This document shows, piece after piece, positions 9,675 through 14,331 of a stretch of 42,513 bases of DNA. Under the pieces are notes generated by a model that saw only the letters and a list, made by a program, of their open reading frames with translations, did no database searches and had not been told where the DNA came from. How positions within the stretch are numbered: the stretch's first letter is position 1; each line of letters opens with the position of its first letter. This DNA comes from Bacteroidota bacterium. GTDB taxonomy: Bacteria; Bacteroidota; Ignavibacteria; UBA10030; UBA8401. The translations under genes were made by a program, and so were the position numbers. The stretch is from the NCBI GenBank assembly GCA_008933835.1, contig WBUG01000028.1, positions 1 through 42,513 of the forward strand, written 5' to 3'.

Positions 9675-10622
9675 ATGCCCGGCCGTATCACATCCCTCTT
9701 CCGCACCGAACTTCCCATCGTTCAGGCGGGCATGGTCTGGGTCTCCGGGTGGCGTCTCGCGTCGGCCGTTTCGGCGGCCGGCGCGCTGGGACTCATCGGC
9801 GCCGGTTCGATGAAACCGGAGCTCCTCCGCGAACACATCACCAAAGCGCGCGCCGCGACGGACCGGACGTTCGGCGTGAACCTTCCCTTGCTGCGGGGGG
9901 ACATCGGCGCGCTCATCGACGTGGTGGCGGAGGAACGGGTGCCGGTGGTCTTCACGGCGGCGGGGCATCCCGGCCGCCACATCGAACGGTTCAAGCGCTA
10001 CGGCGCGACGGTGGTGCACGTGGTGGCGAACGTGAAGCAGGCGCTGAAGGCGCAGGAGTGCGGCTGCGACGCGGTGGTGGCCGAAGGGTTCGAGGCGGGG
10101 GGGCACAACGGCATGGACGAACTCACCACCCTCACGCTCGTCCCGCTGATCGCGGACGCCGTCTCGGTGCCGGTCATCGCAGCGGGGGGCATCGCGGACG
10201 GACGGCAGATGGCCGCCGCGTTCGCGCTCGGCGCCGAGGGTGTGCAGGTCGGGACGCGCTTCGCGGCCACGGTCGAATCGTCCGGACATGACGACTACAA
10301 ACGCCGCATCGTCGAAGCGGGCGAAGGGGACACGGTGCTGACCTACCGCGGCATCCTTCCGGTGCGCGCGCTCCGCAACCCGTTCATGGCGTCGGTGGAA
10401 CGGGAGGAACGGGAGCGCGGCATGACGCGCGAGCGGATGATGGAGCTCCACGCGAAGGGGCGCGAACGGAAGGGGATCTTCGAGGGTGACTGGCAGGAGG
10501 GGGAGATGGAGATGGGACAGAGCGCCGCGCTCGTGCGCGATGTGCCGCCGGCCCGCGAGGTGGTGCGGAGGATGATGGAGGAGTTCCACGCGGCCCGGGA
10601 GCGACTGGCCCGCTCCGGTTGA
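9675..10622 (+). CDS. NPD/FabK-family flavoprotein (nitronate monooxygenase or enoyl-ACP reductase II)
   Basis: 315-residue TIM-barrel FMN protein. It opens with the family pattern RITSLFRTELPIVQAGM. The segment AEGFEAGGHNG contains the histidine conserved in both nitronate monooxygenases and FabK. AAGGIADGRQMAAAFALGAEGVQVGTRF forms the FMN phosphate site. The layout, including the FTAAGHP loop and the C-terminal GQSAALVRDVPPAREVV, is close to FabK, which reduces enoyl-ACP in fatty-acid elongation. Nitronate monooxygenases, which oxidise toxic alkyl nitronates, share the same motifs, so I cannot decide between them. The ATG at 9675 lies 12 nt after the previous stop. The last codons overlap the GTTG of the metH promoter. 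Confidence 0.85.
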   Translation: MPGRITSLFRTELPIVQAGMVWVSGWRLASAVSAAGALGLIGAGSMKPELLREHITKARAATDRTFGVNLPLLRGDIGALIDVVAEERVPVVFTAAGHPGRHIERFKRYGATVVHVVANVKQALKAQECGCDAVVAEGFEAGGHNGMDELTTLTLVPLIADAVSVPVIAAGGIADGRQMAAAFALGAEGVQVGTRFAATVESSGHDDYKRRIVEAGEGDTVLTYRGILPVRALRNPFMASVEREERERGMTRERMMELHAKGRERKGIFEGDWQEGEMEMGQSAALVRDVPPAREVVRRMMEEFHAARERLARSG

Positions 10623-10648
10623 TATTCAGCCCTTCTTTCGGTACATTG
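10618..10648 (+). promoter_or_regulatory. Promoter GTTG-N20-TACATTG of the metH leader
   Basis: GTTG at 10618-10621 and TACATTG at 10642-10648 are exactly 20 nt apart. The expected start point, about 5-7 nt past the element, falls at 10653-10655, which is the first base pair of the putative riboswitch (10654). The two predictions were made independently and agree. Confidence 0.6.
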
Positions 10649-10653
10649 TCACA

Positions 10654-10759
10654 GTGGCGATTTGAACCCGACAGCTTGCCCGCCACATGCGGTCCGTCCG
10701 CGGAACGTTCCGATGCCGAGACGGACATGCAGCCACCTCGCGTGGAAGATGCTAAAGCG
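10654..10759 (+). promoter_or_regulatory. Variant SAM-II-like riboswitch upstream of metH
   Basis: The leader matches the SAM-II plan as I recall it. P1 is GTGGC (10654-10658) paired with GCCAC (10682-10686) across a 23-nt loop. The loop starts GATTTGAACC and contains AGCTTGC. The conserved tail GCTAAAG lies at 10751-10757. A pseudoknot P2 can form between CAGCTT (10672-10677) and AAGATG (10746-10751), with five of six pairs. Unlike compact SAM-II elements, about 50-60 nt are inserted. They hold a stem GTCCGT/ACGGAC (10692-10697 with 10720-10725) and a second GCCAC (10732-10736) that could replace the first in P1. SAM is derived from methionine, the MetH product, so feedback repression is the expected logic. 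Confidence 0.6.
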
Positions 10760-10779
10760 TCGACGGTCGTACCACCTGT

Positions 10780-10810
10780 ACCCCGGCGATGTCGTCGGGG
10801 TTCTTCATTT
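10780..10810 (+). terminator. Intrinsic terminator (attenuator) in the metH leader
   Basis: A 9-bp GC-rich hairpin (10780-10788 with 10793-10801, 4-nt loop, one G-T pair) is followed by TTCTTCATTT. It lies between the riboswitch and the metH start, inside the transcription unit. A competing helix pairs CGACG (10761-10765) with CGTCG (10793-10797) and would open it. This is the expected form of transcriptional attenuation. Confidence 0.6.
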
Positions 10811-10839
10811 CCAGGAAGGGCGGCGCCGAACGGTTGTCT

Positions 10840-13800
10840 ATGAATAAAAGCTTTCTTCAGGTCTTGAACGAGAAGGTCGTCGTCTTCGACGGCGCCATGG
10901 GGACCAACCTGCAGCTGCAGAACCTCACGGCGGACGATTTCGGCGGTGAACACTTCAACGGCTGCAACGAACACCTGCTCCTCACCAGACCCGCCGCGGT
11001 GCAGAAGGTCCATGCGGACTTCCTGGCGGCGGGGGTGGACGTCATCGAAACGGATTCCTTCGGTTCCTCCTCCATCGTGCTCGCCGAGTACGGGCTGCAG
11101 GGCAAGGCGTATGAGATCAGCCGTTTGTCGGCGGAACTCGCCAAACGGACCGTGCTCGACTTCTCCACCGCCGCACATCCCCGGTTCGTCGCCGGCTCCA
11201 TCGGTCCCACCACCAAGCTTCCGTCGCTCGGCCACATCGGGTTCACGGAAATGGAACGCTCTTTCTATGAACAGGTGGCAGGACTCGTGGACGGCGGGGC
11301 GGACCTGCTCATCATCGAAACGGCGCAGGACCTGCTGCAGATCAAGGCGGCCCTCGGCGCGGCGTTCCGCTGCATGGCGGACAAGCGCGTCAAGCTCCCC
11401 GTCATGACCTCGGTCACCATCGAGACGATGGGGACGATGCTGATGGGGACCGAGATCGCCGCAGCGCTCACGGCCCTCGAACCGTACGACATCTCCGTCA
11501 TCGGCATGAACTGCGCCACCGGTCCGAAGGAGATGTCCGAGAACATCCGCTACCTCTGCGAGAACTCCCGCATCCCGGTCTCGTGCATCCCCAACGCCGG
11601 ACTGCCGGAGAACGTCGGCGGAACGGCGCACTATCACCTCACGCCGGACGAGATGGTCCATTGGATGTCGCACTTCGTGAAGGACATCGGCGTCGGCGTG
11701 GTGGGCGGATGCTGCGGGACGCGGCCGGTACATCTCAGGGCGGTGGTGGAAGCGGTGGGCGGCCTGTCGCCGCGCGTGCGCCGTGTGCAGCCCCAGCCTT
11801 CCGTCTCCAGTCTCTATGCGAGCCAGGTGATGGCGGTGGACCCCGGTCCGCTCATCGTGGGGGAGCGGACGAACGCGAACGGCTCGAAGAAGTTCCGAGA
11901 ACTGCTCAACGCCGAGGATTACGACGGCATGGTGACGATGGCGAAGGAGGCGATGAAGGAGGGGGCGCACGTGCTCGACGTCTGCGTGGCGTACGTCGGG
12001 CGCGACGAGGCGCGCGACATGCGCGAGTTCGTCTCCCGCCTCAACACGCAGGTGCCCCTTCCGCTCATGATCGATTCGACCGAGAAGGACGTCATCGAAG
12101 CGGCGCTGCAGCTCACGGCCGGGAAGGCCATCGTCAACTCCGTCAACCTGGAGGACGGCGAGGAGCGCATCGACGCGGTCGTTCCGCTCTGCCGGAAGTA
12201 CGGCGCGGCGGTGGTGGCGCTCACCATCGACGAGCGCGGCATGGCGAAGACGGCGAAGGAGAAGTTCGAGATCGCCAAACGCATCTACGGACTGGTGGTG
12301 GGGAAGCACGGCATGCGGCCGTCGGACCTCATCTTCGACACGCTCACCTTCACGCTCGGCTCCGGCGACGAGGAGTTCCGGAAGGCGGGCATCGAGACCA
12401 TCGAGGCCGTCCGTCTCATCAAGCGCGAGTTCCCGGAGGTCGGGTTCATCCTCGGCGTGAGCAACATCTCGTTCGGTCTCTCGCCGGCCGCGCGGCACGA
12501 CCTCAACTCCGTGTTCCTCCACTACGCCATCGAAGCGGGACTCACGCAGGCCATCGTCAACTCGCAGAAGATCAAACCGCTCTACCGCATCGACGAGAAG
12601 GGGCGCGAACTCTGCCGGCAGCTCGTGTTCGACGAACGGCGGTTCGAGGGCGAGCAGTGCACCTTCGACCCGCTCACCGAACTGATGGCGTTCTATGCGG
12701 ACCGCAAGGCGGAGAAGAAGGACGAACGGAAGGTCCGCACCGGCCCCATCGAAGAGGTGCTGAAGGGACGCATCGTGGACGGAGACCGGCAGGACATCGC
12801 CGCGGACCTGGATACGGCCCTCACGACGTACACCGCCCTGCAGATCATCAACGACATCCTTCTGGACGGAATGAAGACGGTCGGCGACCTCTTCGGCCGC
12901 GGCGAGATGCAGCTTCCGTTCGTACTCCAGTCCGCCGAGACGATGAAGAGCGCCGTCGCCTACCTCGAACGCTTCATGGACAAGTCCGAAGCGACGAACA
13001 AAGGGACGATGGTCCTCGCGACGGTGAAGGGGGACGTCCACGACATCGGCAAGAACCTGGTGGACATCATCCTCACCAACAACGGATACAAGGTGGTCAA
13101 CCTCGGCATCAAACAGCCGGTGGAGGCCATCATCCATGCGTGGGAGGAACACCGGGCGGACGCCATCGGCATGAGCGGACTGCTCGTGAAGTCCACCGCC
13201 ATCATGAAGGAGAATCTGGAGGTGCTCAACGAGCGCGGCCTCACGCCGCCGGTGGTGCTCGGCGGGGCGGCGCTCACGCGGCGCTTCGTCGAACAGGACC
13301 TCCGCTCCCTCTATAAAGGCCCGGTCGTCTACGCGAGCGATGCGTTCGACGGACTCCGCTTCATGGAACAGCTGAAGACCAAGGGCGCCGGAAGCTTCGC
13401 CGTTCCGTCGGCGCCGGACGCCGCACCGGAAGAGGACGGTGAAGAGCTCCTCACCGGCGCGGAAGCGAAGATCGCCGCGGCGCTCCGCGAACGCCCCGAA
13501 CCGCCCTCCCGCTCCGCGGTCTCGACGGAGGTCCGCATCCCGCAGCCGCCGTTCTGGGGCACGAAGGTGGTGCAGGATGTTCCGCTGGAGGAACTCTATC
13601 CCTACATCAACGAGGCCGCCCTCATCAAAGGTCAGTGGCAGGTGCGCAAAGGGAAGAGGAGCGAAGAGGAGTACCGCGCGTTCCTGCAGGAGAACGTCCG
13701 TCCCGACCTCGATCGGCTCAAAGAGCAGGCGGTGCGCGAACGGCTGCTGCAGCCCAAGGTCGTGTACGGCTACTTCCCGTGCGTCTCGGAGGGGAACGAT

Positions 13801-14331
13801 CTCGTCATCCTGCAGGACGACCGTGCGTCGGAGCGGATGCGCTTCACCTTCCCGCGCCAGTCGGACGACCGGTTCCTCTGTCTTGCGGACTACTTCGCAC
13901 CGAAGGGGAGCGGACGCACCGACGTCGTCGCGTTCCACATGGTCACGATGGGCAAACGGGCGTCGGAACATTCCGCCGCCCTTTACGCGGAGAACAACTA
14001 CAAGGAGTATCTGTACTTCCACGGACTGAGCGTCGAGACCACCGAAGCGCTCGCCGAACTGTGGCACAAACGCGTGCGCGAAGAGCTCGGCATCGCCGTG
14101 AACGACGCGAAGGATATCCGGCGGCTCTTCAGCCAGGGCTACCAGGGGTCGCGCTACAGCTTCGGCTATCCCGCCTGTCCGAACCTGGAGGACCATGCGA
14201 AGCTCTTCGAGCTCCTGCAGCCCGAACGCATCGGTGTGCGGCTCACGGACGAGTTCATGCTCGATCCCGAACAGTCCACCGATGCCATCATCGTCCACCA
14301 TCCCGAGGCCCGGTACTTCAACGTCCGGTGA
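10840..14331 (+). CDS. metH: Cobalamin-dependent methionine synthase, full length
   Basis: Transfers the methyl group of 5-methyltetrahydrofolate to homocysteine through methylcobalamin. The 1163 residues hold all four modules. The homocysteine domain (1-310) has zinc ligands C225 (MNCATG) and C291-C292 (GGCCGTRP). The folate-binding domain spans about 330-600. The B12 cap and Rossmann region (about 640-850) carries DVHDIG with the cobalt ligand H734. The reactivation domain (about 900-1163) includes [17 protein letters not shown] and [16 protein letters not shown] and uses SAM for reductive remethylation. The frame is open up to 10789, but I chose the ATG at 10840: the extra codons lie inside the leader terminator, AGGAAGGG lies upstream of 10840, and homology starts at [20 protein letters not shown]. 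It is controlled by the putative SAM-II element. Confidence 0.97.

Follow-up and report, generated by a model that had tools for sequence, protein, structure and literature searches.

The cobalamin-dependent methionine synthase gene, metH, of this Bacteroidota genome is preceded by what is, on the evidence of its sequence, a SAM-II riboswitch aptamer in an expanded form, with SAM as its presumed ligand. The element spans positions 10654-10762 of the window, i.e., of the whole stretch of 42,513 nucleotides that was analyzed. SAM-II elements are pseudoknot riboswitches usually described as compact, a compact L3 being usual rather than strictly defining. The class and the regulatory logic of the metH element are ordinary, and it is the architecture of L3, together with a history of gain and loss, that is unusual. 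Two extra hairpins in L3 hide the aptamer of the window from standard RNA annotation. Its parts, the flanking signals and the regulated gene are listed below, with the basis of each assignment in brackets.

10619-10647, + strand: promoter-like site (TTGATA, 17 nt, TACATT) ending 6 nt before P1 (consensus scan)
10654-10659, + strand: 5′ strand of P1, GUGGC plus G (P1 covariation in 59 aptamers; fold)
10659-10665, + strand: conserved GAUUUGA of L1 (near-invariant among compact relatives)
10669-10679, + strand: 5′ strand of P2, CGAC(A)GCUUGC (ten standard pairs with 10751-10762; class-wide covariation)
10681-10686, + strand: 3′ strand of P1, C plus the first GCCAC (fold; covariation)
10687-10732, + strand: hairpin HA in L3, arms 10687-10698 and 10720-10732 (predicted in each of the six long forms; two pairs with both partners changed)
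10733-10745, + strand: hairpin HB in L3, CCAC of the second GCCAC copy (10733-10736) with GUGG (10742-10745) (six of six long forms)
10746-10750, + strand: short A-rich rest of L3 (sequence; the other long forms have GAAATT or a like sequence here)
10751-10762, + strand: GCUAAAG and 3′ strand of P2, GCUAAAGCGUCG (conservation, pairing and covariation; also the predicted antiterminator strand)
10780-10801, + strand: intrinsic terminator hairpin with the tail TCTTCATTTC (scan; fold of -16.3 kcal/mol; same place in relatives)
10840-14331, + strand: metH, cobalamin-dependent methionine synthase of 1163 aa, the regulated gene (Pfam domains; TIGR02082)

Identity of the aptamer upstream of metH

The initial annotation had proposed a SAM-II-like element with P1, an L1 motif, a pseudoknot and GCTAAAG in that order. 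All of these parts are present, and the motifs that it named were found at 10654-10658 (GTGGC), 10659-10665 (GATTTGA) and 10751-10757 (GCTAAAG). By analogy with the known SAM-II structure, GAUUUGA would form the SAM-pocket side of the aptamer. The pseudoknot had been credited with five of six pairs and the element with an end at 10759, both of which are underestimates because P2 is complete: ten standard pairs join 10669-10679 to 10751-10762, in the window as in all six long forms described below, and the end moves to 10762. P1 consists of five to six pairs and is 99% paired across the class, with compensatory changes; its third pair, for example, is G-C in 36 and C-G in 23 of 59 aptamers. Over these 59 distinct aptamers, pairing in P1 and P2 together amounts to 95.4%, and six of the pairs have changed in both partners. 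Their covariation score, obtained from an alignment fitted to P1 and not to P2, is 0.210, compared with a mean of 0.108 for shuffled alignments (none of 500 as high) and a maximum of 0.071 for slid versions. P1 and P2 are thus established by class-wide covariation.

Related metH leaders carry the pattern GTGG(C/T)GATTTGA..CGACAGCTTGC..GCCAC, followed after 9-19 nt by GCTAAAGCGTC, which is an evident SAM-II aptamer, and both GATTTGAACC and GCTAAAG are conserved among them. Together with the covariation, this is the opposite of what the initial annotation had named as refuting its reading. Two compact relatives (L020 and L022) exceed the cut-off of the Rfam SAM_alpha model, with 40.0 and 39.0 bits. 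The aptamer lies upstream of metH in at least 26 genomes from two families of the window's order, targets having been recognized by the initial sequence of each downstream open frame, and representative proteins having been examined with Pfam and NCBIfam. In the window, metH is complete and its product scores 1356.9 bits against TIGR02082 (cut-off 1010.85). The initial annotation had considered metH an unusual target, which holds by comparison with the targets listed for proteobacteria (metY, metA, metX, metC, hom, and metW; PMC4239095) but not within this order of Bacteroidota, where metH is the rule and apparently the main SAM-II target. SAM-II elements as such have been reported in Bacteroidetes before (PMC1273637, PMC2258182, PMC2864571).

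Scanning of the whole window with Rfam at gathering scores yielded no match. At loose thresholds, RF00521 (SAM_alpha), a model built without the sequences considered here, recognized the 5′ half of the aptamer (10654-10686) with 17.6 bits, which is below the cut-off of 36 but makes the metH leader the best site in the whole 3.57 Mb genome (runner-up, 13.9 bits). A covariance model of the element's own lineage, built from 19 compact relatives, aligned to the full length (10652-10763) with 47 bits and, at E≤1, picked out no place in the genome other than the metH leader. These two rankings and the presence of metH downstream bear out the proposed identity. With RF00521 the element shares P1, the GAUUUGA loop, P2 with GCUAAA, a start next to P1, a downstream terminator, and a methionine gene, so that both a target in methionine or SAM metabolism and an expression platform accompany the aptamer. 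It differs in its target, metH, in its score under the Rfam cut-off, and in L3, which measures about 11 nt in RF00521. RF01726 (SAM-II long loops, Bacteroidetes; PMC2864571) has the same aptamer core and comes from the same phylum, but its consensus contains a short single-stranded L3, and it found no match in the window's genome at E≤10. SAM-V, which PMC6061858 describes as an H-type pseudoknot binding SAM, likewise gave no hit to the leader when all Rfam families were scanned over 10400-11000 at E≤10. Matches to malK-III, PsrR1 and THF in the leader lie far under their own cut-offs and were taken as chance. None of the long forms tested attains the SAM_alpha cut-off, and they are therefore overlooked by standard annotation.

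Hairpins HA and HB in L3

L3 measures 64 nt in the window, about 45-55 nt more than the 9-19 nt of compact relatives. The insert foreseen by the initial annotation is thus real, its estimate of 50-60 nt being somewhat high, and in place of the compact single-stranded L3 that is usual in SAM-II the window contains two hairpins. Six genomes of the family (the window's own, G001, G003, G011, G016, and G020) share this long form, with an L3 of 62-66 nt. GCCAC is present twice (10682-10686 and 10732-10736) with a strong hairpin between the copies, and the predicted fold of each of the six long forms is P1, using the first GCCAC, followed by HA and then HB, in computations that held the P2 strands unpaired and with energies that leave out the pseudoknot and coaxial stacking. 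The strong hairpin recognized earlier is HA, which begins 0-1 nt 3′ of P1. Since the second GCCAC finds its partner in a GUGG close by in all six long forms, L3 holds two hairpins next to P1, leaving GAAGAU alone single-stranded after HB. For every one of the six inserts, at least 96% of the dinucleotide shuffles fold less well than the native sequence. Covariation of the inserted stems, which had been suggested as a check, is present but thin in these six related sequences: both partners have changed in two pairs of HA and in one of HB, a total of three that was equaled or exceeded in 17 of 500 shuffles. Toward its apex HA differs between long forms in both length and sequence, which makes a second ligand pocket there unlikely. 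According to the solved SAM-II structure, the minor groove of P1 accommodates adenines of L3 (PMC12434664). A literature search that covered mostly the main texts of open-access articles found no description of hairpin inserts in SAM-II L3.

The insert comes and goes among close relatives. In a tree of MetH proteins, compact aptamers are nested among long forms, G019 adjoining G011 and G018 adjoining G020; G017, whose leader is missing, goes with G018, and G009 stands beside the long-form group at an unsupported node. This pattern requires either repeated gains or one gain with two or three losses at the least, and a single gain followed by losses appears preferable because the six inserts share their arms, the extra GCCAC, and the GUGG. 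Either way, the add-on appears and disappears over the evolution of these relatives. At least three further lineages have L3 inserts of a different build: G080 and G086 each contain two hairpins, G106 and G133 a single one, and G163 a weaker one. These inserts adjoin P1 or follow an A-rich stretch of L3. A pseudoknot riboswitch of a compact type thus tolerates, and repeatedly acquires, structured inserts in the very loop whose adenines pack on P1, and the existence of sister species with and without the insert renders the role of L3 directly testable.

The chances are about even that the insert is a neutral passenger, tolerated because hairpins in L3 return the strand to the same place, and leaves regulation unaffected. 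The alternation of compact and long forms between close relatives, the unconserved apical part of HA, and the unrelated inserts at similar sites elsewhere would all be expected of such a passenger, whereas the lower stems of HA and HB are retained with some compensation and the GUGG of HB goes with the second GCCAC, although all of this is also compatible with mere avoidance of misfolding. It is conceivable, if only tentatively proposed here, that L3 is instead an evolvable expansion site, where, in this clade, partial duplication of the aptamer's own P2 and P1 strands supplied a spare P1 strand that a new GUGG silenced, where the addition was gained and then lost several times, and where stacking on P1 and delayed synthesis of the 3′ strand of P2 retuned kinetics or affinity.

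The duplicated GCCAC had also been read as offering P1 two alternative partners. The duplicate exists, but its second copy is probably an arm of HB. An aptamer that is bistable in this sense, the choice of copy being part of the switch, seems improbable: both copies are retained in all six long forms, and GUGGC can pair with either on paper, yet P1 formed with the second copy is worse by 8.6-10.8 kcal/mol in six of six. Furthermore, every long form provides a separate GUGG partner for the second copy, and the P2-like letters 5′ of that copy are not conserved (CAUGC in the window). This GUGG is missing from compact sisters with a single GCCAC, a co-occurrence that suggests that HB would serve to occupy the extra copy. 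As an alternative partner for P1, the second GCCAC was rejected on energetic grounds.

Predicted control of metH

The initial annotation had placed the start of transcription exactly at P1. The promoter-like site supports a start there, as does a -10 element, TAnnTT, which is 11 or 12 nt upstream of P1 in 28 of 39 related leaders; any such hit within 20 nt has a random background of 5%. The pattern also agrees with the start of SAM-II transcripts a few nucleotides before P1 (PMC1273637). Downstream of the aptamer, terminators are found at the corresponding place across the order. In simulated folding of the nascent RNA, the 3′ strand of P2 pairs first with the 5′ arm of the terminator (-14.0 kcal/mol at 10793), after which the terminator forms (-19.6 kcal/mol at 10802). 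Among 48 leaders with a script-found terminator, at least three bases of the P2 strand pair into the terminator 5′ arm of the nascent fold in 37, and the bare duplex of P2 strand and terminator arm in the window is not above shuffles (p 0.135). The terminator and this complementarity are, like the anatomy, the conservation and the covariation of P1 and P2, features read in the sequences themselves. From a terminator whose 5′ arm is complementary to the 3′ strand of P2, an OFF switch that responds to SAM by terminating transcription is predicted, as has been proposed for many SAM-II elements (PMC1273637, PMC2258182). Very probably, then, the element is a SAM-II riboswitch that would turn metH off when SAM is plentiful, with both the ligand and the OFF logic assigned by deduction.

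In the proposed course of events, transcription would start at about P1, and P1 would form first. HA and HB would then fold within L3 and reunite the ends of the loop; HA, lying 0-1 nt after P1, could stack on it, and HB, by taking up the second CCAC, may serve to prevent competition for P1. Upon binding of SAM, the L1 loop and P2 would lock and sequester GCGUCG, allowing the terminator at 10780-10801 to form and transcription to stop before metH. When SAM is scarce, GCGUCG would pair with the 5′ arm of the terminator to give an antiterminator, and metH would be transcribed. Control of translation, by which some SAM-II elements act (e.g., that of S. meliloti metA; PMC9373788), is an improbable substitute for this scheme, given that the aptamer is 77 nt away from the metH start codon, that the intervening terminator has a 5′ arm able to pair with the P2 strand, and that terminators recur at this place across the order.

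Origin of the insert and other arrangements in relatives

The insert terminates with copies of the aptamer's own CTTGC..GCCAC. In compact sisters, AGCCAC directly follows GCTTGC, which is what a deletion between the two CTTGC copies of the long form would leave. Tentatively, the insert may have arisen by partial duplication of the aptamer. That a mobile repeat element landed in L3 is hardly credible and was rejected: the presence or absence of the insert between close relatives (G011 and G019; G020 and G018) might suggest it, but the 64-nt L3 has no second full copy in the genome, where the next match covers 38 nt (84%, E 0.004), and the terminal copies fit partial self-duplication with deletion between repeats. 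The second partial copy, CTTGC..GCCAC, inside the insert of most long forms recalls tandem SAM-II riboswitches, of which 44 cases are described (PMC9481103). In contrast to these, the long forms are one complete aptamer with a single GCTAAAG, the second copy has no P1 5′ strand, and GATTTG-like letters precede it in G001 only.

Two SAM-II aptamers that directly abut, their starts being about 52 nt apart, were observed in family f5 (L137-L141; G097, G046, G089, G090, and G049). There is no terminator between them; a terminator follows both, and then an O-acetylhomoserine sulfhydrylase gene (checked in G090). Some members contain a further SAM-II-like motif 5′ of the gene. In family f15 (L127, L128, L129, and L145-L150; G106, G133, G163, G124, G142, G174, and G185), metH is split into two genes encoding the homocysteine/pterin half and the B12-binding half, located on separate contigs or at distant places. 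Both halves are preceded by a SAM-II aptamer of their own, P1 being formed by GTCG/CGAC before the first and by GTGG/CCAC before the second. GCTTTGA is common in L1 of this family, and in one metH leader (L024, G036) GCGTTGA replaces GATTTGA while the remaining parts of the aptamer are intact.

Other genes also lie behind these elements. In five leaders (L003, L002, L080, L012, and L013, from G011, G018, G019, G004, and G012, respectively), a small gene for a 23S rRNA intervening-sequence protein, a four-helix bundle (PF05635 and TIGR02436 in the G011 copy), follows the riboswitch and its terminator and precedes metH, and would therefore share the same switch. In L097 (G070), inspection by eye revealed two small HicB/HicA toxin-antitoxin-like genes after the SAM-II element, at the place of metH in relatives. 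In other families of the class, SAM-II precedes metK (L156, L136, and L157 in G334, G164, and G361; Pfam-checked in G334) or an aspartokinase-like gene (L164 and L165 in G092 and G039; Pfam-checked in G092).
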